Part shown: one piece after another, positions 6,001-61,725 of the stretch | Numbering within the stretch: the first letter of the stretch is position 1 | How the letters are laid out: every line of letters starts with the position of its first letter | From: Microcoleus sp. FACHB-68 | GTDB taxonomy: Bacteria; Cyanobacteriota; Cyanobacteriia; Cyanobacteriales; Oscillatoriaceae | Assembly (NCBI RefSeq): GCF_014695715.1 | Contig: NZ_JACJOT010000004.1 | Location: 1 to 64,000, forward strand | Reading direction: 5' to 3' | Length of the DNA: 64,000 nucleotides | The notes under the pieces: generated by a model | Databases searched by the model: none | What the model saw: only the letters and a program-made list of their open reading frames with translations | Told to the model about the DNA's origin: nothing | Made by a program: the position numbers and the translations under genes

Positions 6001-9000
6001 GGGCAAGGTTTGCCAGGGGCTGAATATATCCAACAACTTCAGCCAGTTAAAAAGGCAATGGACTTCTTGGCAAATATCATTGATGTAAACATCATATCCG
6101 TCGATAGTTTGGGCGCAAAAGCTCCACTAATCAAGTTTGTGCCTGAGTCAATCACGATTGGTGGAACAACCATACAACCGGGATTTGCCATTAATGCTCA
6201 AGTCGAGGCTTGGGGGCAAACAGCGACTTTAGTTCTGGAAGCTAATCCTTTTAATCTTGAGCCAAATGCCAAGGGATCTTTGACGCTGCCTGCGATAGAT
6301 TTAGGATTTTTAAAGCTCAAAGGACATTCCAACGATATAGACAAAAACGCTGAAACATTGGGTTGGAGTTTAGATGCATCTTCAAGCAATGTGTCTATGG
6401 CCGCCAGCGCTAACTTAGAACTGTTCGGTCAAACTGTAGCTGGAGTTAATGCAATAGTTGATGGAACGAACATCTCTATTAAAGACCTCAAGTTGGGTTT
6501 GGATTCTATTCTGGCAGTTGAGCTAGATCACTTAAATGTGAATTTCAAAAACAAAACTGGATCGGCAAAAGGCAGGGTTAAACTGTTTGGTCAAAATCTA
6601 TCTGAGACCAACATTAGCCTCCAGAATAACCAGCTCAACATTACAGGTAAAATGGGCTACGACCTTCCCGTGGTTGGTAATGTAGGTGCCAGTCTTTCGA
6701 TTACTTTAGGTAGTGAGCCGAGTGATTCCAAAGTAAAGGTAAACATTAATGGTGGGGTACTAGGCGGGCTGAACTATGAACTAAACCTAGCTGATCTGAC
6801 AAGTATCGAAGATGTGTTTGAAGAAGCAGCCGACAAGGCTCTCGATACGGTCATAGGTTTTGTAAATGATGCCATTAAGGGGATGGTTAAAGAATTCAAT
6901 GAGCTTACATCAGGTATAGTTGATACCTTAAAGGCGGTAGGAGGCTATATTGCAGGTATTGCCTATGAGGTTTTGGATTGGGTAGACGGGAATCCCCACA
7001 GTGGTAACAATGGCAACAACGAAATTTCTGGAGATAAGTGGAATAACGTTCTCCACGGTCATGGTGGCCATGACAAGCTTTTCGGTCAGGCGGGAAGCGA
7101 CTACATTTATGGAGGGCCTAATGGTGACCAAGTATGGGCAGGGTTTGGGAATGATTGGGTTGAGGGCGAATCTGGAGATGACGAGATCCATGGTGAAAAT
7201 GGAAAAGATTCGCTCTATGGGGGTGATAACACCGATCTGCTTTATGGTGAATGGGGAGACGATCTACTTTCCGGAGATTCGGGCAATGACGGCCTCCACG
7301 GTGGATCTGGGAAAGATGCTCTCTATGGAGGAATCGATCAAGACTATCTTTATGGCGATGACGATGACGATGACCTGCGTGGTCAGAACGGTTATGACTT
7401 TCTTTCTGGTGGGCATGGCAACGACATTCTATATGGCGGCCCAGACCAGGATCGTCTCTACGGTGACGCCGGCAATGATTTGCTCGAAGGTGAAGATGGG
7501 ACAGATCAACTCAGCGGCTCTCACGGTGAAGATACCTTGAAGGGCGGTAAAGACAAAGATGTTCTCTACGGTGGGGACGGTCACGATTTACTTCGAGGCG
7601 GAGATGGGGATGACATTCTCTATGGCGAGGACGATCCGTTCAGGACAAAAATCGCGCTACCTTTCGGAACTAATTGGACGTGGAATAACGACACCCTCTA
7701 CGGTGAGAATGGTAAAGATTATCTCTTTGGGAATATTGGCGAGGATAATCTCAATGGTGGTGATGATGACGACGTTCTAGATGGGGGATCTGAGAATGAC
7801 AAACTCAATGGTGAAGGAGGTAATGACTTCCTCAATGGGGGTACCGGCAACGACGAGCTAAACGGTGGTAACGGTAAAGATACGCTCTACAGTCAAGATG
7901 GCAATGATCAGCTCTCCGGTAATGAAGACGATGATTTTCTTAAAGGAGAGGAAGGAAACGACACGCTCTATGGTGGAACGGGTAAGGATCTCCTTGATGG
8001 TGGATCGGGGAACGACTTGCTCTACGGCGAACGAGATAACGATACCCTCTATGGGGGAGATGGCGACGATAAGTTCTACGGTGGTGAGAACGATGACCTT
8101 CTGAAAGGAGAGGAAGGAAACGACTCGCTCTACGGTGAAGGAAATAACGATACTCTCTCTGGTGGGAATGGCAATAATACCCTTGATGGCGGTGGCGGAA
8201 CTGATACTGCCGACTATCAATTCTCTAGTTATGGTGTTAACGCGGATTTAGCCTCTGGTCACGCTACTTTCTCTAGCAATAAAGATCAGTTAACTGCGAT
8301 TGAAAATATCATTGGTTCGGCTCAGAACGACACATTGATTGGGAGCGCTCAAAATAATACTCTCTTCGGTCAATCTGGTAATGACTCTCTTGGTGGTGAA
8401 GACGGCGATGACTACCTCGATCCTGGAAGTGGTAACGATACTATTGATGGAGGAGAAGGTAACAACGATACCTTACGCTTGGTCGGGAGGACGGAAGACT
8501 ATCAGTTTACCAAGACATCGACCGGATGGGAAATTGTTGGTGCCAATGGTGATGTCAAAATTGTCAGCGAAGTTGAGAATTTTGAGTATCAGCCTTTACA
8601 AAATGCTTCTGGTTTCTTGAATGTTGAGGATCGGTTCTCACAGGATGTCCTCGATTTCTTTAAGAAGGCTGAAGAAGCGATTAAAAATACTGTCTATGAA
8701 CCTAGCGTCTCTTGGCAAGACTTGTTGAATAATTCAAACCCCCACAGTGGTAATGATCGCAACAACGAAATTTATGGAGACGCTCGTGGCAACTCGATGT
8801 ACGGTCAGCGAGGCAATGACAAGATCGTAGGTCAACGAGGTGACGACAAAATTTGGGGTGGGCCTGATGGTGACCTGCTATACGGGATGGATGACTCAGA
8901 CTATCTCGATGGTGAAAGCGGAGATGACGAGCTTCATGGTAATACCGGCAATGACGAGCTTCATGGGGGAGATAACACCGATCTGCTTTACGGTGAAGAG

Positions 9001-11934
9001 CAGTACGATAAACTTTACGGCGGTTCGGGTTCTGACCGGCTACATGGTGGACCTGGTAACGATTCTCTCTATGGGGGAATCGATCAGGACTATCTCTATG
9101 GCGATGACGATAATGATGACCTCCGGGGTGACAACGGTTATGACGTTCTTTCTGGTGGGAATGGTAATGACTCTCTCTATGGCGGGCTAGACGAAGATCG
9201 TCTCTATGGTGACGCAGGCGACGATTTGCTCAATGGTGAAGATGGCAAAGATGAACTCCACGGCTCTGACGGTCAAGATACCCTGAACGGCGGTAATGAT
9301 AAGGATTATCTGTTTGGGGGTCGTGGAAACGATGTTCTAGATGGGGGTGCTGAGGACGACACAGTTATTGGTGAAGAGGGGAATGATACTCTCCTGGGCG
9401 GCGATGGCAACGACTACCTCGATCCTGGGATTGGTAACGATACCATTGATGGGGGTTCTGGTCACGATACCTTACGCTTGGCCGGCACGAAGGAAGACTA
9501 TAAGATTACCAACACATCGACGGGATACCGAATTGAGGGTCCCAATGGTGATGTCAAAATCGTGAGGGGAGTTGATGCCTTTGACTATCAGCTTGCCTAT
9601 AATAACACCTCCACAACCACAAGCCTTACAGGCGCTCAAGTCAGGAAATACTACAGCAGCCGTGTCATCGACGGTTACATTTCTAGCGGCAAGGTGTTCT
9701 TCGATGCCAACTTAAACGGGATGTTGGATGAGGGAGAATCCTTTACAATAACCCAGGCTGATGGTGACTTCGACCTGAACGTGGAGGTCGAGAAGTTTGA
9801 TACGAACCAAAATGGTGAACTTGACTACACTGAAGGCCAATTTGTCCTGATGGGAGGGATGGATATACTCTCCGGGGTGGATGCAGCAACCGGCTTAGCA
9901 ATGGCGACCCCACTCACTTCAACTTTGGAGTCAACGGTTGTCACCCCGTTAACGACGATGATCGCCGAGTTAGTGAAGCAAGGTACTGACCCAGCAACGG
10001 CTCAAACTCAAGTCAAAGCAGCATTAGGACTGCCGGCTGATGTTGATTTGGGCAGCTACGACCCCTTAGAAGCGATCGCCAATGGGGACGCGAAGGGCGT
10101 ATCGGTGTTTGGCTCGATGATTATGGTGCAAAACACCATCGTCCAGATGGCAAAATTCATCGATGGGGTTTCGGCAACAGAAGTTGCACAGCTGGCATTT
10201 AGTGGGATTGCTGCGCTCGCCAACCAAACCAAGGCCGGCACGACTGTAGATTTGGATAAAGCAGAAACTATCCAAGCGATTCTCCAAGAAGCCATTACCA
10301 AGGCAGCACAGTCTGACGCTACCATCAACCCGACAGCACTAGCAGCTACCGCTACTGCTGCCGCTCAAGTCATGGCTTTGGGCAATCAAATGGTCAAGGA
10401 ACTTGTCCTGAGCGGTCGCCCCATCAAAGATATTGCCCTGGAAATTACCAAACTGCAGGCGGTATCCGTCGGTCAAATTGCGGTGGGACTGCCGGAATTG
10501 GCGGCGGGAACTGTCTCAATTGAAGATTTCCTCGCTAATAACACCAAGGAAGCAATCCTCTCTCGGATGGCGAAGGTGCAGGTGAATGACCCCACGATTC
10601 GCCCCGTTGTCGAGGATAACCCAACTGAACCGACTGAACCGACTGAACCAACTGAGCCAACTCAACCAACTCAACCGGCGTTCTCTAACTCTCCAAATAC
10701 CAGCACCAGCACAGCCACTGACAATTCCCCAACCAGCACCGCTACAGAAGATTGCACTTGCCCAGAAATGCCGGCCCTAACACCGGCTAATATGAGCCTT
10801 GCCATGACCATGACCGGCACCGAAGCAGATGACGCCCTCATGGGTTCTGAAGCGGCAGACGGCATTCAAGGTAACGCCGGCAATGACATGGCAATGGGAA
10901 TGGAAGGCGACGATATCATCGTTGGCGGTAATGGCACCGAACTGAGCACCGGCGATGCCGATCTGCTCTTCGGCAATGCCGGCAGTGACATGATGACCGG
11001 CAATACCGGCAACGATAGCATCCACGGTGGCCAAGGCAACGATCTCGCCTTAGCCGGCAAAGATCACGACTGGCTCGACGGCAACATGGGAGACGATACT
11101 CTCAGCGGCGATCTGGGGAACGACACGGTTTGTGGCAGCAGCGAACAAGATTTAATCTACGGACAAATCGGCGATGATATGTTGTTCGGCAATGCCGGCA
11201 TGGACAGCATTTCTGGTGGCGAGGGTAATGACATCATGTATGGCGGCAAAGACAACGATCTGTTGCATGGTGATGCCGGCAACGATCTGCTCTCTGGTGA
11301 TGCCGGTGATGATAGTCTCTGCGCCGACGATGGGGACGATACCGTGATCGGTGGTACCGAACAAGACACCCTCTGCGGCGGTAATGGCAATGACTTGCTG
11401 TTCGGTAATGTGGGCCAGGATTCGCTTGATGGCGGTGCCGGCAATGATTCGATTTATGGTGGCAAGGATAATGACAATCTTGCCGGCGATGAAGGTGCGG
11501 ATCTGCTGATGGGTGATGTCGGTGATGATTCTATCAGTGGCGGTGCCGGCAACGATCTACTGTATGGCAATGCCGGCAAAGATGCTCTTAATGCCGGTGA
11601 GGGTGATGATTCACTCTACGGTGGCAAGGATGATGATACGCTCATCGGTGGCAGTGGTAGCAATCTCCTGTGTGGCGACATGGGTAGCGATAGCCTGACA
11701 GGCGGTGCCGGTATTGACCGCTTTATGCTCAAGTTGGGTGCCGGTGGCGATACCATCTCTGATTTCACAGACGGGCAAGATTTACTCGTTTTAGATAGCA
11801 CGCTCACCTTCGCGCAATTAACTATCACCCAAGGTAGTAATGGGGCGTTAATTAATGTTGGAAATGAACTGCTCGCTACGTTGAGTAATGTTGATTCCAC
11901 CTTGCTCACTCAGCAAGATTTCTCTCTGGTGTAA
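1..11934 (+). CDS. Giant secreted Ig-like / RTX calcium-binding protein, 5' end outside the window
   Basis: The frame is open from base 1, so the N-terminus lies upstream; 3977 codons are visible. In window residues, about 1-1650 are tandem Ig-like domains of roughly 95 residues, with recurring FTVTATFSE, NFTAVD and TYTFDVTP motifs and a DSAGNNNTAA-type ending. About 1650-2325 is a unique beta-rich region ending in a helix. About 2330-2820, 2915-3160 and 3605-3905 are RTX nonapeptide blocks (GGxGxDxLx). Between the last two lies a segment with two EF-hand-like loops (DANLNGMLDEGE, DTNQNGELDYTE) and a Pro-rich TEP/TQP linker. The C-terminus carries the FTDGQDLLVL-type end common in RTX proteins. 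RTX proteins normally leave by type I secretion and fold when they bind Ca2+; a surface adhesin or sheath role is inferred. No transporter gene lies in the window. Confidence 0.9.
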   Translation, partial: PGAVAIDAAGNNNTAATALTRTFDSLAPSVSLTSAAGTTVNAPFTVTATFSEDVSNFIAGDINVANGSVSNFVAVDARTYTFDVTPTADGSVNVDIAGAVATDSAGNNNTAATQLSRTFDNTTPAVTLNTTASGTTNNPFTVTATFSENVTGFNATDITVGNGSVSNFIAVDGQTYTFDVAPTADGIVTIDVVANAAQDAVGNNNTAATQLSRTYDATSPAVTLTSAAGTTVNAPFTVTATFSEDVSNFIVGDINVANGSVSNFVAVDARTYTFDVTPSADGTVTVDVAAATATDTAGNSNTVATSLTRTYDNTTPALTLNTAASANTNAAFTVTAAFSENVTGFDASDLNVANGSVANFTAVDGQTYTFDVAPTADGIVTIDVVANAAQDAVGNNNTAATQLSRTYDATSPAVTLTSAAGTTVNAPFTVTATFSEDVSNFIAGDINVGNGSVSNFVAVDARTYTFDVTPTADVTPTADRTVTVDVAAAVANDSAGNNNTAAAQLSRTFDSTGPIVSLNSTAPANTNTAFSVTATFNTDVTGFDATDLVVGNGSVSNFTAVNGTTYTFDVTPTAEGSVTVNVPSGVAQDSATNPNTASVQLLRTYDTTVPTATLTSTAPATVTGAFNVTASFSENVTGFTGTDVTLSNGSLSNFTAIDARTYSFTVTPTAQGAVTVAVPGAAATDVAGNNNTAAPQLSRTFDSVVPTATLGAITPNPSNSSISSVPITFSEAVTGLDLADLTLTRNGAAVSLAGATLSGSGTSYTIGNLAGLTGTEGNYTLTLNASGSGITDAAGNALSANTSSSWSTDTTVPTATLTSTAPATVKGAFNVTATFSENVTGFTGTDVTLSNGSLSNFTAIDARTYSFTVTPTAQGAVTVAVPGAAATDVAGNNNTAAPQLSRTFDSVVPTATLGAITPNPSNSSISSVPITFSEAVTGLDLADLTLTRNGAAVSLAGATLSGSGTSYTIGNLAGLTGTEGNYTLTLNASGSGITDAAGNALSANTSSSWSTDTTVPTATLTSTAPATVKGAFNVTATFSENVTGFTGTDVTLSNGSLSNFTAIDARTYSFTVTPTAQGAVTVAVPGAAATDVAGNNNTAAPQLSRIFDSVAPTVTINQAAGQADPTAGTTVNYGVVFSETVTGFDATDILLGGTANPTTATVTGSGTTYNVAVAGMSGAGTVTASVKADAAGDAAGNTSLASSSTDNNVNYNNTPPTVTGITRTNSNPNNAATVNYTVNFSESVTGVDASDFSVTTTDSLTGATVSSVTGSGNSYNVAVNTGTGDGTVQLNLTDNDSIKNNLNVALGGTGVGNGNFSGPSYTLDKTGARVTNVTSTLANGTYRAGTVIPLTVTFSEVVNVGGTPTLTLSSGGIANYAAGSGTNTLTFNHTVGAGQNAADLNATTLSLAGGTIKDATGNNATLTLPAAGGVGSLGANKNIALDTAVPSVTLASSAAAAVRAPFNVSATFSENVTGFVASDLSITNGTVSNFTGTGSNYNFTVTPTASGAVTVNIPASRATDAAGNNNTAATALTRTFDNIAPLVTSVTSSSADGEYKAGAVIPIKLEFLEAVNVTGKPELTLNSGGKAIYVSGSGTNSLSFNYNVGAGQGSVDLDYAGTSALSLAGGTIKDRANNNALLTLPAISGSSSLGGSKNIKIIPSFYSASQLDTYLKKVYQSTPLLDNVKAPLLSTFAAWDSLEKDPANTLTATGTFDGTKIELIPNPTNTFNTPLGSALKALKGYSSHADSQIEDLVTLDKLFGFSIDIPVPTLTITDLRSAPIYNFSIPIEVANQSPVFSLIKDTLGISKLTLTAGLNTATKGGGPFVTATLDRNQNIVDIAGFQINFAGGDLFYGWNEKLEKTLSITPKLLLKNYDLLNDNEPPLKLSGIFTFEKESFTGGFKVEAVNPQEPAPVWNNPFGLFPGSELKNGSIEFKKKFTDPSIGEVLISGDFNYQGNLNITLTGLAIDVAKGVPKTLVLTANERVNLFEVWAMSQMQALPGGQGLPGAEYIQQLQPVKKAMDFLANIIDVNIISVDSLGAKAPLIKFVPESITIGGTTIQPGFAINAQVEAWGQTATLVLEANPFNLEPNAKGSLTLPAIDLGFLKLKGHSNDIDKNAETLGWSLDASSSNVSMAASANLELFGQTVAGVNAIVDGTNISIKDLKLGLDSILAVELDHLNVNFKNKTGSAKGRVKLFGQNLSETNISLQNNQLNITGKMGYDLPVVGNVGASLSITLGSEPSDSKVKVNINGGVLGGLNYELNLADLTSIEDVFEEAADKALDTVIGFVNDAIKGMVKEFNELTSGIVDTLKAVGGYIAGIAYEVLDWVDGNPHSGNNGNNEISGDKWNNVLHGHGGHDKLFGQAGSDYIYGGPNGDQVWAGFGNDWVEGESGDDEIHGENGKDSLYGGDNTDLLYGEWGDDLLSGDSGNDGLHGGSGKDALYGGIDQDYLYGDDDDDDLRGQNGYDFLSGGHGNDILYGGPDQDRLYGDAGNDLLEGEDGTDQLSGSHGEDTLKGGKDKDVLYGGDGHDLLRGGDGDDILYGEDDPFRTKIALPFGTNWTWNNDTLYGENGKDYLFGNIGEDNLNGGDDDDVLDGGSENDKLNGEGGNDFLNGGTGNDELNGGNGKDTLYSQDGNDQLSGNEDDDFLKGEEGNDTLYGGTGKDLLDGGSGNDLLYGERDNDTLYGGDGDDKFYGGENDDLLKGEEGNDSLYGEGNNDTLSGGNGNNTLDGGGGTDTADYQFSSYGVNADLASGHATFSSNKDQLTAIENIIGSAQNDTLIGSAQNNTLFGQSGNDSLGGEDGDDYLDPGSGNDTIDGGEGNNDTLRLVGRTEDYQFTKTSTGWEIVGANGDVKIVSEVENFEYQPLQNASGFLNVEDRFSQDVLDFFKKAEEAIKNTVYEPSVSWQDLLNNSNPHSGNDRNNEIYGDARGNSMYGQRGNDKIVGQRGDDKIWGGPDGDLLYGMDDSDYLDGESGDDELHGNTGNDELHGGDNTDLLYGEEQYDKLYGGSGSDRLHGGPGNDSLYGGIDQDYLYGDDDNDDLRGDNGYDVLSGGNGNDSLYGGLDEDRLYGDAGDDLLNGEDGKDELHGSDGQDTLNGGNDKDYLFGGRGNDVLDGGAEDDTVIGEEGNDTLLGGDGNDYLDPGIGNDTIDGGSGHDTLRLAGTKEDYKITNTSTGYRIEGPNGDVKIVRGVDAFDYQLAYNNTSTTTSLTGAQVRKYYSSRVIDGYISSGKVFFDANLNGMLDEGESFTITQADGDFDLNVEVEKFDTNQNGELDYTEGQFVLMGGMDILSGVDAATGLAMATPLTSTLESTVVTPLTTMIAELVKQGTDPATAQTQVKAALGLPADVDLGSYDPLEAIANGDAKGVSVFGSMIMVQNTIVQMAKFIDGVSATEVAQLAFSGIAALANQTKAGTTVDLDKAETIQAILQEAITKAAQSDATINPTALAATATAAAQVMALGNQMVKELVLSGRPIKDIALEITKLQAVSVGQIAVGLPELAAGTVSIEDFLANNTKEAILSRMAKVQVNDPTIRPVVEDNPTEPTEPTEPTEPTQPTQPAFSNSPNTSTSTATDNSPTSTATEDCTCPEMPALTPANMSLAMTMTGTEADDALMGSEAADGIQGNAGNDMAMGMEGDDIIVGGNGTELSTGDADLLFGNAGSDMMTGNTGNDSIHGGQGNDLALAGKDHDWLDGNMGDDTLSGDLGNDTVCGSSEQDLIYGQIGDDMLFGNAGMDSISGGEGNDIMYGGKDNDLLHGDAGNDLLSGDAGDDSLCADDGDDTVIGGTEQDTLCGGNGNDLLFGNVGQDSLDGGAGNDSIYGGKDNDNLAGDEGADLLMGDVGDDSISGGAGNDLLYGNAGKDALNAGEGDDSLYGGKDDDTLIGGSGSNLLCGDMGSDSLTGGAGIDRFMLKLGAGGDTISDFTDGQDLLVLDSTLTFAQLTITQGSNGALINVGNELLATLSNVDSTLLTQQDFSLV
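511..1322 (+). repeat. 236-bp direct duplication (511-746 and 1087-1322)
   Basis: The two segments read identically, 576 bp apart, and encode the same half-domain plus the start of the next Ig-like domain. They sit inside the giant gene and keep the reading frame. Confidence 0.85.
1399..1434 (+). repeat. 18-bp perfect tandem duplication
   Basis: The unit GATGTCACTCCTACCGCA occurs twice back to back and inserts an extra DVTPTA into one Ig-like domain. It is a fresh slippage-type, in-frame event. Confidence 0.9.
1818..3320 (+). repeat. 609-bp tandem repeat inside the giant gene (2.5 copies)
   Basis: Units start near 1818, 2427 and 3036; the third is partial. Period 609 bp equals 203 codons: one Ig-like domain plus a second domain type (ATLGAITPNPSNSS...). 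From about 2000 to 2665 the sequence recurs at +609 with no difference seen by eye, whereas the first 180 bp of unit 1 has diverged. This pattern fits recent unequal crossover or gene conversion. Confidence 0.9.
6985..9600 (+). repeat. Duplicated RTX module within the giant gene
   Basis: Two copies of one module lie in series. Each begins with an NPHSGN..NNEI motif (near 6990 and 8738), runs through RTX nonapeptides that include LYGGxDxDxLYGD units, and ends with an EDYxxTxTSTG - NGDVKIV - VxxFxYQ segment (near 8490-8595 and 9500-9597). The second copy is shorter, so units were lost or gained after duplication. Confidence 0.7.
10621..10677 (+). repeat. Nine-base repeats encoding a TEP/TQP linker
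   Basis: Six imperfect copies of a CCNACTGAA-type 9-mer encode PTEP/PTQP units. They form a rigid proline-rich spacer before the last RTX block. Confidence 0.85.
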
Positions 11935-52594: not shown

Positions 52595-53099
52595 ATTGAT
52601 TTTCGTTGTTAGATTTTGGCTGGAATTTTAAGGCTTGAAAACTATATAAAGCAAGACTTTCAGCTTTATGCAAGCGTATTTACAACGAGGTTGATTCATC
52701 CGGATTTTATATTATATGTTTCGGATTTGTTAAAATAGCCGGGGATACGAAGCAGACAAATAGTGATTTTATCTAAAATATTATTGCCGATATGTGCCGG
52801 TGACTCTGGCGAAGTGTGTCTTAGGGAGAATCGCATTCATCAACTTATTTGCAACAGATGCCTTTAATTAGCTGCAGGCGCGAGGGTGGATGCCGGCACT
52901 CGCCTTGCAAACTTGGTTGCGGATTCTACCGGCAGCGTTTTTCTCCTGCCTGAGATGGCATAGCAGTTGATTAAGAAATCTTGATAAATATTTAATTAAA
53001 TTTATTATTTAAGCCGACAAGCTCACTAGCCTCAATTGGAGATCGCTGCAATCTAAACTAGGATTTGGGCGTAGTTGTGAGTCAGGCAAGGGTGATTTG
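52595..53099. other. Spacer upstream of the winged-helix/ATPase cluster
   Basis: 505 bp. A former terminal repeat of the IS630 element was looked for but is not evident. The last 120 bp is AT-rich (TTAATTAAATTTATTATTTAAG) and likely carries the cluster promoter. AAGGGTG lies just before the ATG at 53100. Confidence 0.35.
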
Positions 53100-53996
53100 A
53101 TGGACGTGCTTGAGCTGAAGTTTCTGTTAGAGTTATTAGGTTTTCCCGATTACCGGGCACCGATTAGCAAAATTAAGCCCAATCCTCAAACGAAAGCCGC
53201 AGAACGAGATAGCATCTGCCGCAACCTGTGCGATCGCGAGTTAGTGGCTTATAGCTGTGAGGTTCTGCAACTGTCAATCGCCCCGCCTGGGAAGTCGCTG
53301 CTCAAATTAGACACCACACGGCTGCCGATCGCCGAGGCAGAAGTTCAGGTGCTTAAGGCTTGCGCCGAGTCTAGCATCACGCCGGCGCAAACTGGGCTTA
53401 GCGCGGATAGCCGGCAGGCAATCATCCACGGTTTAGCAGAACGGGGTTTAATTAAGGCAGAGAAAACGCAAATTAATGAAGTTTGGCTGACACAGCGAGG
53501 TTTGGAGTATCTGCAAGACGAGTGCAACCCCAGCGGAACCACACCTGTGATTAGTTTGGATTTGCTCACTCATTACTTGCGCTTTTTGCGGAAATCCTTG
53601 CGAGAGAAGCCGACAGCATTGCCACAAAATGAGCAAGAACTTCCTCCTCACCTCCCGTTAAAAAAAGAGGCAGGTTCCCACCCTTTAGTTGAGGAAAAAA
53701 GAGAAGCACCGCCGGCAGTGGTAAACCCGTTAAGTGATGCGGATATTTTACAAATGATTCGCGATTTAGATAGGGAACTTGCTACAGAAAATTATTTGCC
53801 AATTTTTCAACTGCGGCAAAAGTTACAATCGCAGATGTCTGGAAATGAGTTAAATCAGATGCTTTATCGGTTACAACGCAATGACAAAATAGAATTAAGT
53901 TCGTTGCAAGAAGCGATTGCCTACACACCCGAACAAATTGAAGCCGGTATTCCCCAAGATGTGGGAGGGCCACTGTTTTTCATTATCGTGCTTTAA
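53100..53996 (+). CDS. Protein with two winged-helix-like segments, first gene of the twin-ATPase cluster
   Basis: 298 residues. Residues about 80-140 look like a winged helix (EVQVLKACAESSITPAQTGL, QAIIHGLAERGLIKAE, VWLTQRGLEYLQ). The C-terminal 90 residues look like a second one (YLPIFQLRQKLQSQMSGNEL, QMLYRLQRNDKIELSSL, YTPEQIEAGI), ending in GGPLFFIIVL. Between them is a charged linker. No catalytic motif is seen. It precedes the first ATPase by 87 bp on the same strand with a 9-bp inverted repeat in the gap, suggesting an operon in which it binds DNA or recruits the ATPases (inference). Family not recognised. Confidence 0.75.
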   Translation: MDVLELKFLLELLGFPDYRAPISKIKPNPQTKAAERDSICRNLCDRELVAYSCEVLQLSIAPPGKSLLKLDTTRLPIAEAEVQVLKACAESSITPAQTGLSADSRQAIIHGLAERGLIKAEKTQINEVWLTQRGLEYLQDECNPSGTTPVISLDLLTHYLRFLRKSLREKPTALPQNEQELPPHLPLKKEAGSHPLVEEKREAPPAVVNPLSDADILQMIRDLDRELATENYLPIFQLRQKLQSQMSGNELNQMLYRLQRNDKIELSSLQEAIAYTPEQIEAGIPQDVGGPLFFIIVL

Positions 53997-54007
53997 AGTA
54001 ATCTGAG

Positions 54008-54044
54008 GTCTTTTATCTAGGATAAACTGCCAAAAATAAAAGAC
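54008..54044. other. Inverted repeat between the first two cluster genes
   Basis: GTCTTTTAT and ATAAAAGAC form a perfect 9-bp inverted repeat with a 19-base gap. It could modulate the transcript or bind a regulator. Confidence 0.4.
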
Positions 54045-54083
54045 AGAAACCTAAATCTTCACTCTTTACTCTTAACAACTCCT

Positions 54084-56162
54084 ATGGCATCTATCGATCT
54101 GATTATTCAAAGAGAACCTAACCCCTTTGACGCTGAAACATTTTGGTCGGGTAACTTTTGGCAAGAACAACAAGATCCCGCCCTCACGGTGGAGTCAATT
54201 CATCAAGATGCGGTTGCTGAAATTGAACAACTTTTGGCTCAAGTTGCGGGAGATAATCGCACGCGCACGATGATGTTAGAAGGCGAAACCGGCTCCGGTA
54301 AAACTTATTTATTAGGCCGGATCAAACGCATTTTGAATCCGAAAGCCTTTTTTGTCTATATTGAGCCATTTACCGCCAGCGATTATATTTGGCGGCATAT
54401 TCTGCGCTACACGGTTGATAGTTTGTTGGAGGTTCCTGAAGGGCAAGAAGACTCTCAATTATTGATTTGGCTGAAAGGGCTATCGGAGTTTAAACAACGC
54501 AGCATTATCGACCTCATCCGGGGTGATCGGCAAATTTTCATTCGCAATCTGAGAGAAGCTTATCCTGCCGGCATCTACAATGCTGCTGAGTTTTTTGGGG
54601 TTTTATATGACTTAACGAATCCTAAATTATCTAGCCTCGCCTGTGAGTGGTTACGGGGCGATGATTTAGATGAGGATAGTTTAAAATTGCTGCGGGTACA
54701 ACATTCGATTGAAACAGAAGATGCCGCACAGAAAATTTTAGCCAACTTTGGCAGAATTGCGGCGGAAACTCAGCCAATTGTGTTGTGTTTTGATCAGTTA
54801 GATAATATTGCGCGTTTGCCAGATGGAGGCATCGATCTGCAAACATTGTTTAGCGTGAATTCGGTGATTCACAATCAAAAGCTGAAAAATTTTCTCGTCA
54901 TGATCAGCATTATTACTGATACTTGGCGGCAAAATTCTCATCGCGTTCAACCGACAGATAAAGATCGGGTTGATGCGGTGATTAAACTCAAACAAATTAC
55001 CTTAGATCAATCGGAAGCACTTTGGAAAAGCCGGCTGCATATTTTACACCGGCAAGCGTCTCCCCCGCCTCCGTCTGCGATTTATCCCTTAACCAGGCAA
55101 GTGCTAGAAGAGAAATTTCCTGGGGGGAAAACGAGACCAAGAAATGTGCTAATTTTAGGCCGGCAGTTATTTCAAGATTGTAAAGTTGGATTGGTTCGTT
55201 ATGACAATCCGCCAATTGTTTCGCCAATTGTTCCTCCTGAAAATTCACATTCTCAAGTTCCTGAAACTGTAGCGCCTCCCGTTCAAGTGCAGCCGGTTGT
55301 TGAGGAGTCTTTTGATTCCTTAGCGGCATTTAAATTAGTATGGTTGCGGAAATTAAATCAAACTCAGCAGCGAATTTCTCGAATTCGTCAATTCTCTTCA
55401 CCCGAATTAATTCAAATGTTGGCAGAAGCCTTAGCGGCGTTGCAGGTTGAAGAAATTCAACCACGACTTTTGCCGAGTCGAACCTATGCCAGCTATTCTC
55501 TTAGCTATCAACTTCCCGGTCATTCTGAACGAATTGGGGTGGTTTGGAGTGAAGACCAAAATATGACTAAATTTTGTAACTTGATCAAAATTTGTCAAGA
55601 AGCTGTGGATGAGAAGCTGTGTCAATCCTTGCACCTCATTCGGTTTGAAGGCGTTGGGACTCCCAGTAATTTAGGATATAAACTTTACACGCAACTTTTC
55701 ACAGAGTCTCACCACAATCACTTTATGCCAGATTTGTTTTCAGTGCAGTATCTTGCAACGTATCACAGTTTGGTGAATGATGCTTATTCTGGGGATTTAG
55801 TGGTGGGTGAACAAACTCCCGATCTGCAAGAATTAGAAGGATTAATTCGTGAATCTAAGATTTTACATCAGTGTTCCCTTTTGCAAGATTTAGAAATTGT
55901 TCCGCCTCTCGTTATTAGCGAGGAAAATAAGGCGGAGTGGCAGCCGGTTGAGGATTTTCTGCTGAATCGGGTACTCAACCAGCAATGTTTAGCACGACAG
56001 CGCCTGATTCAAGAAACACTCAATCAGTTTGTTCAGGTTAATGAAGTTCAAGTTAATCTTTTGATTGAACATTTGTGTGAGGAAAATCATAAGGTGAAAA
56101 TTCTTGATCCGCAAGCCAAGTTAGAAGATCAATTAGTTTATGCGGCCAGAACAGATGAGTGA
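54084..56162 (+). CDS. Large P-loop ATPase A of the twin-ATPase cluster, family not recognised
   Basis: 692 residues. A conserved N-terminal signature NPFDAETFWSGNFWQEQQDP precedes Walker A GETGSGKT (67-74). Walker B is QPIVLCFDQLDNI, and a sensor-like strand NFLVMISIITDTW follows. FPGGKTRPRNVLILGRQLF marks the end of the ATPase core (about 365-385). The C-terminal half (about 420-600) is a separate alpha/beta domain (YASYSLSYQLPGHSERIGVVWSEDQNM) and may be a nuclease-like or protein-binding fold. The end resembles a winged helix. It is AAA+/STAND-like. Its neighbour at 56303 is a clear paralogue throughout. No membrane segment. Confidence 0.8.
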   Translation: MASIDLIIQREPNPFDAETFWSGNFWQEQQDPALTVESIHQDAVAEIEQLLAQVAGDNRTRTMMLEGETGSGKTYLLGRIKRILNPKAFFVYIEPFTASDYIWRHILRYTVDSLLEVPEGQEDSQLLIWLKGLSEFKQRSIIDLIRGDRQIFIRNLREAYPAGIYNAAEFFGVLYDLTNPKLSSLACEWLRGDDLDEDSLKLLRVQHSIETEDAAQKILANFGRIAAETQPIVLCFDQLDNIARLPDGGIDLQTLFSVNSVIHNQKLKNFLVMISIITDTWRQNSHRVQPTDKDRVDAVIKLKQITLDQSEALWKSRLHILHRQASPPPPSAIYPLTRQVLEEKFPGGKTRPRNVLILGRQLFQDCKVGLVRYDNPPIVSPIVPPENSHSQVPETVAPPVQVQPVVEESFDSLAAFKLVWLRKLNQTQQRISRIRQFSSPELIQMLAEALAALQVEEIQPRLLPSRTYASYSLSYQLPGHSERIGVVWSEDQNMTKFCNLIKICQEAVDEKLCQSLHLIRFEGVGTPSNLGYKLYTQLFTESHHNHFMPDLFSVQYLATYHSLVNDAYSGDLVVGEQTPDLQELEGLIRESKILHQCSLLQDLEIVPPLVISEENKAEWQPVEDFLLNRVLNQQCLARQRLIQETLNQFVQVNEVQVNLLIEHLCEENHKVKILDPQAKLEDQLVYAARTDE

Positions 56163-56302
56163 GAAAAAATCTCGATTCCACTAGATTGAAGAAAATCAGA
56201 TAGGAAGGCGGCAATTGGGAAAGAAGAAGGAGAAGCAAAGCCTTTCTCCAGACGTTATTAAACTAAAGCTTAGTAACGAGAAATTCTTCACTATCGAGAG
56301 GT

Positions 56303-58357
56303 ATGGGTGTGGCATTTATTCATCAAATCATTCGGCAAGCTGTGAATCCTTTTGACTCAACGACTTTTAGACCCGGTAATTTTTGGCAGGAGGAACAAGA
56401 TCCTGCATTAACGGTTGATTCGATTCATCAAGAAGTTGTAAGTGATATTGAAGAACTTCTTGATAAAGTGGCGCAAGATCACCGGACGCGCACGATTTTG
56501 CTTGCCGGCGATTCGGGTTCTGGGAAAAGTTATCTATTAGGCCGGCTGAAAAAGTTACTCAACTCAAAAGCTTTTTTTGCCTATATTGGGCCTTGGCCAG
56601 ACAGTGATTTTATCTGGCGTCATACCCTCAGAAATACAGTTGATAGTTTGATGTATGTACCAGAGGGCCGGCAAGAATCTCAGCTATTACTTTGGTTGAA
56701 GAGTTTATCTGCTTTTAGAGACGAAGGTTTAATGAAGCAGCTACTCGGTGAAAGAAACCTGTTTATCCATAATTTAAAGGGAGTTTTTCCCAGCGGTATT
56801 TACAATGCCAATGAATTTTTTGGTGTGCTTTATGATTTAACAAATCCCGAAATGTATCCTTTAGCCTGTGAGTGGTTGAAAGGCGACGATTTGGATGAAG
56901 AAACGCTCAAGGCTTTAAAAGTAAAACGTGCAATTGAAACTGAAGAAATCGCGCTGAAAATTTTGGGTAATTTTGGAAAAATTTCTGCAGCAACTCAGCC
57001 CATTGTCCTATGTTTTGATAATTTAGATAATATTGATCGGGCGTTAGATGGATTTATTAATTTACAAGCTTTGTTTAATGTGAATTCAATTATTCACAAT
57101 CAGAAGTTAAAAAATTTTTTAGTAATTATTAGTATTGTTACAAATACATGGAAGCAAAATTCTAAACGGATTCAACAAGCAGATCAAGCTCGAATTGATT
57201 TACCAATTCGCTTGCAACCAATTACTTTAGATCAAGCGGAAACGTTATGGGCGAGTCGGCTGTATTCACTACATCGGCAAGCAAATTCTCTACTTTCTTC
57301 GTCAATTTATCCGTTAAATCGTCAACATTTAGAAGATAAATTTCCTGGGGGAAAAACTCGCCCACGCTATGTTTTAATGTTAGGTCGGCAGCTATTTCAA
57401 GAAGCAAAAATTGAAGGGTTTGATGGATCAACTGAATTTGATTTAGATGTCAATAGTACGCCGATAGATCCGTTTGCAGCGTTTCAATTAGTGTGGCTCA
57501 AGGAATTTAACAAAACTCAGGAAAAAATTTCTCGAATCCGTAAATTTTCAGCACCCGAATTGATTCAGATGTTGCGAGAAGCGCTCAATGCGCTGCAAGT
57601 TCACGGAATTCAGACGAAACTTTTACCAAGTCCAACTTATGCAAGTTATTCTCTTAGCTATCATCTGCCGGTGCAATTGGGGAGAATTGGCGTTGTTTGG
57701 ACAGAAGAACCGAACCTGATAAGTTTCTGCAATTTGATGAAAGCTTGTCAGAAGGCACTTAAGCAAAATCTCTGCCAAACTATACACTTAATTCGTGCTG
57801 AAGGGGTGGGGACTCCAAATAATCAAGGCTACAAACTCTACAATCAAATTTTCACCGGCTACCGCAACCGACACATCATTCCAGATATGACTTCGGTTCA
57901 CTATTTAGCAACTTATCACAGCTTGGTAAATGCTGCGTGTGCCGGCGAATTAGTGGTAGGAGATCATACTCCTAGCTTGAGCGATTTAGAAGCTTTAATT
58001 CGCAAATCTAAAATTTTGCGGGATTGTCCTTTATTGCAGAGTCTCGGTGTTTTTAGCGGTTCTACTCAGATTACAGGAGTTGCCGGCACTTCTAGTATTA
58101 ACCAACAAAAGCCGGTTGTGCGGAAAGAACTTGCTCAACCCTTCCATGATGTTAAGGAATTTTTGTTGAATTTAGTGAAAACTCAACAAATGATGGGATG
58201 TCAGATTCTGATTCAAAATGCCTTGGATCAGTTTCCTTTAGTAGAAAATACACAGGTTGAGCAATTGATTGAGGAATTGTGCCAGGAGAATCAAATTTTT
58301 ATTCTTGATCCAAATGCTGAGCCGGCGGCACAATTGGTTTGTTTAATAACCAAATAA
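56303..58357 (+). CDS. Large P-loop ATPase B, paralogue of the preceding gene
   Basis: 684 residues. It has the same order of motifs as ATPase A: NPFDSTTFRPGNFWQEEQDP, Walker A GDSGSGKS (69-76), Walker B QPIVLCFDNLDNI, NFLVIISIVTNTW, FPGGKTRPRYVLMLGRQLF, then YASYSLSYHLPVQLGRIGVVWTEEPN. I judge the two proteins to be over half identical by eye. GAGAGG lies directly before the ATG. The gap to ATPase A is 140 bp. Two retained, diverged copies suggest a hetero-oligomer or separate specificities. It converges with the parAB-like operon 68 bp downstream. Confidence 0.8.
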   Translation: MGVAFIHQIIRQAVNPFDSTTFRPGNFWQEEQDPALTVDSIHQEVVSDIEELLDKVAQDHRTRTILLAGDSGSGKSYLLGRLKKLLNSKAFFAYIGPWPDSDFIWRHTLRNTVDSLMYVPEGRQESQLLLWLKSLSAFRDEGLMKQLLGERNLFIHNLKGVFPSGIYNANEFFGVLYDLTNPEMYPLACEWLKGDDLDEETLKALKVKRAIETEEIALKILGNFGKISAATQPIVLCFDNLDNIDRALDGFINLQALFNVNSIIHNQKLKNFLVIISIVTNTWKQNSKRIQQADQARIDLPIRLQPITLDQAETLWASRLYSLHRQANSLLSSSIYPLNRQHLEDKFPGGKTRPRYVLMLGRQLFQEAKIEGFDGSTEFDLDVNSTPIDPFAAFQLVWLKEFNKTQEKISRIRKFSAPELIQMLREALNALQVHGIQTKLLPSPTYASYSLSYHLPVQLGRIGVVWTEEPNLISFCNLMKACQKALKQNLCQTIHLIRAEGVGTPNNQGYKLYNQIFTGYRNRHIIPDMTSVHYLATYHSLVNAACAGELVVGDHTPSLSDLEALIRKSKILRDCPLLQSLGVFSGSTQITGVAGTSSINQQKPVVRKELAQPFHDVKEFLLNLVKTQQMMGCQILIQNALDQFPLVENTQVEQLIEELCQENQIFILDPNAEPAAQLVCLITK

Positions 58358-58425: not shown

Positions 58426-59334
58426 CTAAACAGATATATCTGCAACCTCTTTTAGCTTGTCGTAAGTCTTATCAGCAAAACCTTTAATTTTACCTTCCTT
58501 TCCCCTAGCTGATTTTTCAAGATTACGCCAATTTAAGCCTTGAGTCGATGCCTTCCAATATTCAATTGCTTTCCAGGCTGCTTTCCTCTGATTATCAGTT
58601 GCGCCTACCTCTTTCAATGCTCTATCAACGTCTTCTTGCGTAGCTAACTGTAAATCAATTTTTGCTGCTTTTGGTGTAATTTTTGCTGCTGTTGGTGCGA
58701 AGTTTGCTGGCGGTTCTATTAGTTTTTGAACCGCTTCGGCAAGCCGATCAACCGTAGATGTTAAATGAGAAATTGTGTTCTCAATGTCGCTTAGTTTGCC
58801 TTCAAAAGAATTGCCGGCACTACTTGCCGGTTTGGAAAGTAGTTGGTTAAGCTGAGAATGGAGAGGTTGCAACTTTTTATCTAGTAAGTTCTCCATGTCA
58901 ATTGTTTCTGTCTCAGCTCCATTCTCTGTAACTTGTTTAGGTTGTTCTAGCTCAATTTTTTGATCACTTAATGAGACGCCTGCCAACTGCTCCATCTCTG
59001 CTTTTGTAGCAGTGGCTTGCTCATCACTCATATCAAAAACCCAAACCCATAGCCTCTCGATGTCAAGTTCCTTAGCAACAAAACACCAATCAGCGCCGTA
59101 TACAACCTCATACTCTTCTTCCTCACTATACGCTTCAGTATGACGCACAATGACAGGAACTAAATTAGTTTTGTATTCAGTAAGGCTATCCTCTAATACC
59201 TGACGTCTTTTCAGTGATATCTCTTGTTTCTGAGAGTCTGGTATCGCAATTTGAAATGTATGTACTTGTCCGTGGCTAATGGGTTCAATACCCAAGTTAG
59301 CTCTAATCCGAGCGCGACGATCCGATCTATCCAT
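58426..59334 (-). CDS. ParB-like protein
   Basis: 302 residues from the ATG at 59334, which overlaps the upstream gene's stop by 8 bp (ATGGATAG). Residues about 25-120 are a ParB/Spo0J N-terminal domain (RQVLEDSLTEYKTNLVPVIV, YEVVYGADWCFVAKEL, VWVFDMSDEQATATKAEMEQL). The usual central HTH is not seen. A long coiled coil (LLDKKLQPLHSQLNQLL..LSDIENTISHLTSTVDRLAEAVQKL) and a small helical C-terminal domain follow. It is probably a CTP-binding-fold partner of the ParA-like protein in partition or positioning. DNA binding without an HTH is unclear. Confidence 0.82.
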   Translation of the reverse strand: MDRSDRRARIRANLGIEPISHGQVHTFQIAIPDSQKQEISLKRRQVLEDSLTEYKTNLVPVIVRHTEAYSEEEEYEVVYGADWCFVAKELDIERLWVWVFDMSDEQATATKAEMEQLAGVSLSDQKIELEQPKQVTENGAETETIDMENLLDKKLQPLHSQLNQLLSKPASSAGNSFEGKLSDIENTISHLTSTVDRLAEAVQKLIEPPANFAPTAAKITPKAAKIDLQLATQEDVDRALKEVGATDNQRKAAWKAIEYWKASTQGLNWRNLEKSARGKEGKIKGFADKTYDKLKEVADISV

Positions 59335-60835
59335 TGTTTGATAACCTTTCCTTACTAACTTCAATTAAGTGTTCAGCTAAGTCTTCATAGCGTTCAAGCG
59401 CCTTTTGTGCGGCTTCCTTGTCTTTAGAGCTTAGTTGATCGTCAAATTCTGCCTGGTAAAGTGGGTATCCTTTATCTTGAGAAATCGAAAGAACATTTAA
59501 CCGGGGAATCCAAGTCTTTTCAGGAAAAAGCTCCACTTTATCAGCGCCGCCACTTTTTTCTAGCACATCAAACAGCTTTTCTGTCATCGATGAATTAAAG
59601 CTGGACGATCTTTGATCGTACATACTTACGGCAATTCCTAAGATGGGAAGCGGTTTCAACTGTTCTATTTCGTTTATTCTATCTAGCACATACTCCAAAG
59701 CTCGAATGGGATAAGCTGATAATTGAGTAGGAATAAGAATCCCTGAAGATGCCATTAGAGAGATTCCATTCACCCGACCAAAAGAGGGAGGTGGATCAAT
59801 AAATACAAAGTCATAGTCATTATTTTTTAACTTTTTTTCTAATACTTGATCAATCCCGACTGTAGTGTTAAGCACATTTTCCATACGGCTTAAACGAATG
59901 TGAGAGGGCACCAAATGTAATTCAATATTTTGCCACCGCTTTTTAATGATAGTATCTTCTAACCGAGTTCTGGGTTCAGTTAATAAATGAGTAATATCTT
60001 TTTTGCCTTGATCTTCAACATCAATTAACGGATCGATTCCTAAGCCGGTCGTTAAATTGGCTTGGCCATCAATATCAATTAGCAATACCCGTTTACCCAT
60101 CTTACTAAGAGCAGCAGCAAGGTTAATAGTGGTTGTGGTTTTTCCCACACCACCTTTGTTATTAAAAACAGTAATAATCATAGAATTCCTATTGATAACC
60201 TTGTTGACTAAAAGGGCGTTTTCTGGCTCAACTAAGATTGAGTCTACTTGATTGGCATCTTTTCCAACAGAAGGATTGCTTTTCTTTCTAAATAATCCCA
60301 GCATATCTTCATTAGCAAATGCTTTTGATATCAAATTTCCAAACTGACTGTAAACTTGCTGTTGTCTTTGAGTCAAAGCATAATATATTTTTAAACAAGT
60401 TGCTTTGCATAGCAGCTTGTAAAATCGATTAAACTCAGCAATTAGTTGAGTTTGAGAGTATTGGGCAACTGTTTCAATTTTTCCATCATATTGATAAAAT
60501 AAGCGAAACTGGTAGCCATTTGTTAAAAGTCCCAAAATAGCCCCAGACTTACGCATATAATTGTTAATCTGCCAACGATTTTGAGAAATTTTTTTCCTGG
60601 CAGCTTTGGCTTCAATAACTAAATAAGGTGGATAAGGCAAACCAGAATCTTTTGGCTGAATTAAAAAGTCAAGTTTATATTTGCCCAGAATAAATTGAGC
60701 CTTCCAATCTTCCCCGTTATAACCAAGGAGGCTCAAGAGGGGTAATATAACCTTGTTCTCTACATCCTCTTCACTACTGTAAAGATTGATTGATGCAAAT
60801 AAATCTGACAGGGATGAACCAGCCGATCTCATCAT
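59327..60835 (-). CDS. ParA ATPase fused to an N-terminal HsdR_N / PD-(D/E)XK-like domain
   Basis: 502 residues. Residues about 15-115 match the type I restriction R-subunit N-terminal fold: Glu26 (EEDVENKVILPLL), Asp56 (KYKLDFLI), Glu75-x-Lys77 (YLVIEAKAARK) and Gln89 (NRWQINNYMRK), a full nuclease-type set. A linker leads to the ParA domain at about 219-495: deviant Walker A NNKGGVGKTTT (Lys227, Lys232), LLIDIDGQANLT and FVFIDPPPSFG. It is translationally coupled to the ParB-like gene. ParA moves cargo over DNA; joining it to a possible nuclease is unusual. No Shine-Dalgarno is evident at the ATG. Nuclease activity is inferred from the residues. Confidence 0.87.
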   Translation of the reverse strand: MMRSAGSSLSDLFASINLYSSEEDVENKVILPLLSLLGYNGEDWKAQFILGKYKLDFLIQPKDSGLPYPPYLVIEAKAARKKISQNRWQINNYMRKSGAILGLLTNGYQFRLFYQYDGKIETVAQYSQTQLIAEFNRFYKLLCKATCLKIYYALTQRQQQVYSQFGNLISKAFANEDMLGLFRKKSNPSVGKDANQVDSILVEPENALLVNKVINRNSMIITVFNNKGGVGKTTTTINLAAALSKMGKRVLLIDIDGQANLTTGLGIDPLIDVEDQGKKDITHLLTEPRTRLEDTIIKKRWQNIELHLVPSHIRLSRMENVLNTTVGIDQVLEKKLKNNDYDFVFIDPPPSFGRVNGISLMASSGILIPTQLSAYPIRALEYVLDRINEIEQLKPLPILGIAVSMYDQRSSSFNSSMTEKLFDVLEKSGGADKVELFPEKTWIPRLNVLSISQDKGYPLYQAEFDDQLSSKDKEAAQKALERYEDLAEHLIEVSKERLSNNG

Positions 60836-61088: not shown

Positions 61089-61529
61089 TTAACCGCGTTT
61101 TAACAAACCGGAAACACTATTCTTAACCTGCGCCACCGCATTTTGAATAAAATTGCCGGCAGACGGCTTCGGCGGAACCGCAACCTGAATTGGCTCATCC
61201 GCAAATTCTTTTCCCTTTAACTTAAAGCCATATTCCAAATTCTGCTGATGCTTCCGTAGCATCGGAAACAAACGAAAGCCGCCTTCACGCAACGCTTCCA
61301 AATTTTCAAAAATAGCACGCTCAATGTGGCTGCTACGATTCACCGCCAAAGAACCCACGGGAAACCAGTTTTTCTTATCCTTAATCCGCATATAGATATT
61401 AAACTCTGGCAGTCCCTCTTCCTTCATTTTGTCATACTGCTTAGACGCAACCGCCCGTTTTTCCGAGCTTTTGCCTGACTTCTTGCTCGACTTAACTTTG
61501 CCAAATCCTTGATTGCTCGTCATAGACAT
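61089..61529 (-). CDS. HHL1-like protein
   Basis: 146 residues from the ATG at 61529 (MSMTSNQGFGKVK); the frame extends upstream to 61619 but without likely coding content. The core (ASKQYDKMKEEGLPEFNIYM, KNWFPVGSLAVNRSSHIERA, FRLFPMLRKHQQNLEYGFKL, DEPIQVAV) matches, from memory, the plant chloroplast protein HHL1 and its cyanobacterial relatives. The plant protein helps repair photosystem II under high light. A similar thylakoid-linked role is inferred here. The N-terminus is Lys/Ser-rich and there is no membrane helix. Confidence 0.82.
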   Translation of the reverse strand: MSMTSNQGFGKVKSSKKSGKSSEKRAVASKQYDKMKEEGLPEFNIYMRIKDKKNWFPVGSLAVNRSSHIERAIFENLEALREGGFRLFPMLRKHQQNLEYGFKLKGKEFADEPIQVAVPPKPSAGNFIQNAVAQVKNSVSGLLKRG

Positions 61530-61725
61530 TACTCTTTTACGCTCTTTACAGAAGTTTACATTATTTTCAGAAAACTGGAATCGCCTTGAGGCAGCGAGTT
61601 TGACACCGGCTTCGCTCAAACATCCCTAGAAGCGCAGCCGGCAGCCTCAAGTGCGGGAATGCCTATGTCAGATTAAGTAAATACCGAACCCACAACCCGC
61701 CCAAGCAATTTACAATTCTGAATAG

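Follow-up and report, generated by a model that had tools for sequence, protein, structure and literature searches.

The window, by which is meant the whole stretch of 64,000 nucleotides analyzed here, carries a gene that joins an HSDR_N-like, nuclease-type domain to a ParA ATPase domain. Its 502-residue frame lies exactly at 59327–60835, where an earlier note on this DNA had placed it without naming the strand; the frame exists on the minus strand only, the plus strand over the same interval being interrupted by many stops. The gene and its parts are the following:

59327..60835, minus strand: HSDR_N-ParA fusion gene of type A, 502 aa, ATG start
60416..60808, minus strand: PD-(D/E)XK (HSDR_N-like) domain, residues ~10–140, Pfam HSDR_N_2/HSDR_N
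60770..60772, minus strand: Glu22, the invariant helix-1 glutamate
60668..60670, minus strand: Asp56, the predicted catalytic aspartate of strand 2
60605..60613, minus strand: Glu75-x-Lys77, the ExK motif of strand 3
60557..60571, minus strand: QxxxY motif, Gln89–Tyr93
60191..60280, minus strand: low-confidence linker, residues ~186–215
59336..60187, minus strand: ParA ATPase domain, residues 217–500, with Walker A KGGVGKTT

The N-terminal domain was recognized by profile and by predicted fold. In the window protein, Pfam HSDR_N_2 matched residues 51–114 (E = 4.3e-5, 24.0 bits against a GA cut-off of 25) and HSDR_N matched residues 20–47 (E = 6.8e-4); in a genome-wide search, the same HSDR_N_2 stretch reached 26.3 bits, above the cut-off. 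Since all 30 aligned homologues matched HSDR_N_2 (best 6.5e-9) and 22 of the 30 matched HSDR_N, the match is not due to chance, and the comparison with HSDR_N families on which the earlier note had staked its reading of this domain returned a match rather than none. Against solved structures, the N-domain sequence gave only BpuSI (E = 0.13) and an HsdR (E = 1.7), neither of them significant, and a structure search with the whole-protein model was dominated by ParA matches that crowded out the N-domain. The AlphaFold2 model of the whole fusion has a mean pLDDT of 82.8, falling below 50 over linker residues 188–215. In this model, helix 22–36 is followed by strands 44–50, 53–59 and 72–76, helix 83–97 (Q89) and strand 101–105. 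As modeled, mostly at pLDDT >90, the order of elements is the alpha-beta3-alpha-beta of PD-(D/E)XK proteins, with D56 in beta-2 and E75 in beta-3.

The ParA domain, described in the earlier note as intact and of the deviant-Walker type, answers to that description. AAA_31 spans residues 220–392 (E = 3.5e-44, Pfam) and the deviant Walker A is complete (NNKGGVGKTT, residues 225–234), so that the KGGxxK[T/S] signature of ParA/Soj-type proteins is found within an AAA_31/ParA fold. The nearest solved relatives are Soj/ParA (VIA-align Z-scores: ParA 8ray, 27.7; Soj 9a6n, 27.6). McdA is also a structural neighbor, but not the nearest. Separate from the fusion, a stand-alone ParA (~290–313 aa in most cases) lies divergently, at most 2.5 kb upstream, in 13 of 93 scanned loci (L036, L042, L045, L052, L061, L072, L084, L096, L102, L103, L104, L108, and L111) and in L195 (L195:5013-5909). 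These copies are 50–93% identical to the one in L195, and their nearest solved relative is Soj, not McdA.

Directly downstream, a second gene begins inside the last codons of the fusion, as had been noted before:

59327..59334, minus strand: 8-nt overlap of the fusion stop codon and the partner ATG
58426..59334, minus strand: ParB-like partner, 302 aa from ATG
58981..59283, minus strand: ParB-fold domain of the partner, residues 18–118
58717..58896, minus strand: long helices of the partner, probable coiled coil, residues 147–206
58435..58662, minus strand: C-terminal helical domain of the partner, residues 225–300, pLDDT mostly 94–98, swapped between alleles

A frame starting at TTG would overlap the fusion by 38 nt; homologues align from MDRSDRR, and the start is therefore placed at the ATG at 59334, with an overlap of 8 nt that includes the stop codon. 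Linkage to a parB-like gene, which the earlier note had proposed to survey in the neighborhoods of homologues, is nearly constant: a same-strand gene of suitable size lies 3' of the fusion in 88 of 90 loci, with a median gap of −1 nt and a gap of at most 10 nt in 77. Of 24 aligned partners, 20 carry a Pfam ParB_N match (best 9.4e-9), and the best PDB matches of the partner model were Noc, ParB, and KorB (Foldseek). The tails differ. Among the 24 aligned partners, Rho_N was matched by six, SAP by four, and HHH_3 by three; the assignment of tails rests on these Pfam counts, the regex classes being crude, with many tails left as "other." No HTH family appeared among the best 25 of the 87 Pfam families matched by aligned partners. 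The CTP-binding motif GERRxR was found in none of 89 partners, which makes CTP switching of the canonical kind unlikely. The partner is thus a protein of the ParB-CTPase fold that lacks GERRxR and bears interchangeable tails, either SAP/Rho_N or helix-hairpin-helix-like. A second type-A ParB-like gene, with a SAP-like tail, lies roughly 1 kb downstream of pairs of either type A or type B at L037:8304-9392, L053:4371-5483, and L054:5145-6242, and at L055, L056, L057, and L074.

ATPases of the ParA/MinD class position many kinds of cargo (PMC10241942), and McdA is among the structural neighbors of the motor. The pair could accordingly be conceived as positioning a cargo other than DNA, as McdAB does for carboxysomes, with the nuclease domain serving as a nucleoid anchor. 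However, the partner combines a ParB fold with SAP, Rho_N or helix-hairpin-helix tails of DNA-binding type, unlike McdB, and McdA is not the closest relative of the motor; such a role is very unlikely.

The family is widespread and divided into three types. In a full-length search of one order, type A proteins showed 45–68% identity in aligned sets and type B about 25–34%. A search with an N-domain profile (A4) across the phylum gave matches in 77 of 386 genomes and revealed type C, and a profile built with types A, B, and C (A5) found 187 of 390 Cyanobacteriia genomes, in 90 of 156 genera, at E ≤ 1e-10; this last figure counts N-domains, the fusion having been checked in fetched loci, and most frames among the matches listed are 430–620 aa long. 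Outside the cyanobacteria, fusion and partner occur in Thiorhodospira, a Beggiatoa MAG, and a Desulfobacteraceae MAG. The control Synechococcus elongatus gave no HSDR_N_2 match. With about half of Cyanobacteriia genomes carrying the domain and S. elongatus lacking an HSDR_N_2 match, this is not a universal segregation system. The types share 22–27% identity in the N-domain. FastTree phylogenies of the N-domain and of the ParA domain both returned type A without exception; types B and C were also recovered apart from one protein (L149), assigned to B by hand, which falls with C in both trees. Because three deep types appear in both trees, the fusion is old, and we read it as one event that preceded the divergence of the types, both domains having been inherited jointly ever since. 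A chance ParA match beside an unrelated frame was rejected, given a single frame in 93 distinct fused proteins and congruent trees.

Conservation across these 93 proteins is concentrated on the putative active site. E22, E75, K77, and G102 are present in all of them and D56, Y93, and N106 in 92; the seven N-domain columns with the highest conservation include those of D56, E75, and K77. The Walker residues of the motor are conserved as well. The loss of the E/D/ExK residues in most homologues, named beforehand as evidence against a nuclease fold, was not seen. The residue set listed in the earlier note (E26, D56, E75-A-K77, Q89) is complete in the window protein; in the family, though, E26 is kept in only 81 of 93 proteins and Q89 in 40 (Arg in 27, Lys in 25). 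A helix-1 glutamate does exist, but the invariant one is Glu22 and not Glu26. The only protein with D56 replaced (by Gly) is L058:8090-9565; this fusion has AAA/P53 genes on either side. Altogether, profiles, predicted fold and conservation agree with the proposed architecture of an HsdR_N-like PD-(D/E)XK domain, a ParA motor and a ParB-like partner, and the residue pattern suggests that the N-domain is nuclease-competent, with cleavage itself a prediction.

The same domain might instead have lost cleavage and simply bind DNA within an ordinary ParA-type partition or positioning system, much as the N-terminal HTH does in P1 ParA and SopA. It sits in the same position of the protein as the HTH of type Ia ParAs, the Gln of QxxxY is often Lys or Arg, and one lineage does without it: in L049 (genome G043; L049:7938-8786), no N-domain is detectable, the sequence upstream of ParA resembles the terminal part of a different gene, and both ParA (69% identical) and its partner persist, so the nuclease domain is not obligatory everywhere. 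Yet the retention of D56, E75, K77, and Glu22 in 92–93 of 93 proteins, despite such low identity between types, exceeds what mere DNA binding should need. As D56, E75, and K77 are nearly invariant across three deep clades, reuse for DNA binding only, one of the three functions that the earlier note had proposed, is quite unlikely.

The surroundings of the pair in the window include the following genes:

61089..61619, minus strand: HHL1-like gene, syntenic upstream neighbor (PF20133, E = 4.4e-53)
56303..58357, plus strand: AAA ATPase 2 (AAA_16-like), convergent neighbor
54084..56162, plus strand: AAA ATPase 1, paralogue of AAA ATPase 2
53097..53996, plus strand: 299-aa protein with a weak winged-helix/z-alpha-like match, which travels with the AAA pair

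HHL1-like genes adjoin the fusion in several families, and the ten neighbor genes sampled are mostly housekeeping genes. The twin AAA_16-type ATPases and the 299-aa protein (53097–58357) are convergent with the fusion pair, and their order is kept in other genomes. The link to the twin ATPases that the earlier note raised is real, in that seven of the eight genomes with the AAA pair (out of 24) have it beside the fusion, but it is confined to three families, with five genomes from one of them. At the start of the window (1–11934) lies a 3977-aa frame whose 5' end is open.

No Hsd genes were found among the neighbors scanned in the window, and a restriction-modification fragment was rejected on this ground; the SF2 translocase motor and adjacent HsdM/HsdS of type I restriction-modification are likewise missing, the motor being ParA. 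Queries with the N-domain gave no cyanophage match and, elsewhere, just weak restriction-type matches, so a phage-borne system was also rejected. No cyanobacterial plasmid record matched the type A and B N-domain queries, and both types were found on chromosomes. Type C has plasmid-borne members: two Nostoc plasmids carry it next to Rho_N partners, and the 12.6-kb Pseudanabaena plasmid ABRG53g, which has no other gene annotated as this kind of ATPase, carries it next to a short downstream gene.

Canonical partition elements are scarce in these genomes. Canonical ParB scored above the cut-off in only six of 23 genomes with the family, the window's own genome not being among the six, and canonical parS was found in none of 17 genomes at ≤1 mismatch. 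Near the fusion and partner genes there were no parS-like or iteron arrays, just short two-copy repeats. In a test for origin linkage, the distance to dnaN was not significantly short (KS p = 0.15, 18 genomes).

Pairs of genomes of the same genus that carry different types were compared. In genus g1, the window (type A) and L063 (type B) share HHL1, AAA1, and AAA2 genes at 95–98% identity and a membrane-protein gene at 79%, whereas their fusion domains are 31–39% identical. Similarly, in genus g3, L036 (A) and L072 (B) have flanks of 88–95% and fusion domains of 32–36%, and their partner tails are 79% identical across 81 aa; in genus g55, the corresponding values for L039 (A) and L059 (B) are 80–95%, 29–36%, and 78% over 82 aa. 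A second comparison in g55, L041 with L059, gave flanks of 76–86% and no similar partner tail. Conversely, L072 and L073, both of type B, have fusions that are 90–92% identical and unrelated partner tails. Related species therefore exchange A for B at one locus between flanks that are 76–98% identical, and the partner tail was retained twice. Because motor and ParB_N are swapped together, independently of the tail, we infer that the tail may act as a DNA adaptor.

Such exchange bears on the main rival to a partition-type role, namely defense or DNA exclusion, in which motor and partner would survey DNA and HSDR_N would destroy or block plasmid or phage DNA that lacks a self feature. Divergent alleles swapped between conserved flanks are expected of diversifying or recognition systems, the nuclease site is nearly invariant, and the distribution is patchy; on account of the swapping and patchiness, defense is a tentative possibility. 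It is at odds, however, with fixed syntenic sites in chromosomes among mostly housekeeping neighbors, with relatives that also reside on plasmids, and with the lack of a methyltransferase or helicase partner beside the fusion. PADLOC gave just weak or ParA-domain matches in the five proteins scanned, and a known defense system was rejected.

The reading that we prefer, with a probability of roughly one half, is that fusion and partner work as a partition-like module that positions DNA in the ParA/ParB manner, its motor being equipped with a nuclease-competent HSDR_N domain. A partition-type role is favored by the plasmid-borne relatives, by the partner's ParB fold and by the chromosomal location in the midst of housekeeping genes; sequence does not separate plasmid or phage targeting from segregation, the other two functions first proposed. 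Against a partition-type role stands the repeated exchange of the entire module at a single locus, which a housekeeping partition system would not usually undergo. In the partition-like module, ATP-bound ParA dimers would coat the nucleoid, while the partner would touch ParA through its N-terminal half, hold a DNA cargo with its tail (SAP/Rho_N or helix-hairpin-helix-like) and, by analogy with ParB-type partners, stimulate ATP hydrolysis. The nuclease domain, on a flexible linker of ~30 residues, might nick or trim DNA where partner meets motor, candidate substrates being tangled sister copies or DNA without the right partner. A bolder version is unlikely: in many cyanobacteria, the motor of a chromosomal partition system would itself be a nuclease that acts on DNA while chromosomes segregate, for instance to resolve or eliminate copies that lack a partner, and a ParB-fold protein that has lost the CTP motif would set the DNA address through its interchangeable tail.

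According to a review, cyanobacteria lack a classical ParABS, and how polyploid species position their chromosomes is an open question (PMC7766704); for S. elongatus, the McdAB paper states that no chromosomal parB is obvious (PMC6328274). The fusion and its partner offer a widespread, old two-gene candidate for DNA positioning, amenable to deletion and tagging; from the natural A/B swaps in which the tail was kept, predictions follow as to which part sets DNA specificity. No description of an HSDR_N-ParA fusion was found among the results listed from the literature searched, mostly open-access papers, nor was the apparent joining of partition and DNA cleavage in one module; the main text of a survey of ParB-fold fusions (PMC12704722) contains no HsdR, SAP domain or helix-hairpin.

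Among known systems, McdA/McdB likewise pairs a cyanobacterial ParA-family ATPase with a small partner, but McdA has no nuclease domain and is not the nearest homologue. McdB is not known as a ParB-fold protein. ParABS systems (Soj-Spo0J, Thermus, Helicobacter) share the deviant Walker ParA and an adjacent, overlapping downstream gene for a ParB-fold protein; they differ in that the motor here bears an HSDR_N nuclease-type domain, the partner lacks GERRxR and an HTH family among its best-matched families, and canonical parS was not found. In EcoR124I HsdR, the lysine of ExK is Lys167, which gives the same Lys-to-Gln spacing of 12 as in the fusion. Both proteins have D...ExK and QxxxY, at D151, E165, and 179–183 in EcoR124I (PMC4454674). 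The nuclease here is coupled to ParA, not to an SF2 translocase, and has no HsdM/HsdS beside it in the window. Type Ia ParAs, such as P1 ParA and SopA, have an N-terminal HTH domain. The fusion resembles them in placing a DNA-related domain before ParA, and departs from them in that this domain is of the PD-(D/E)XK type.
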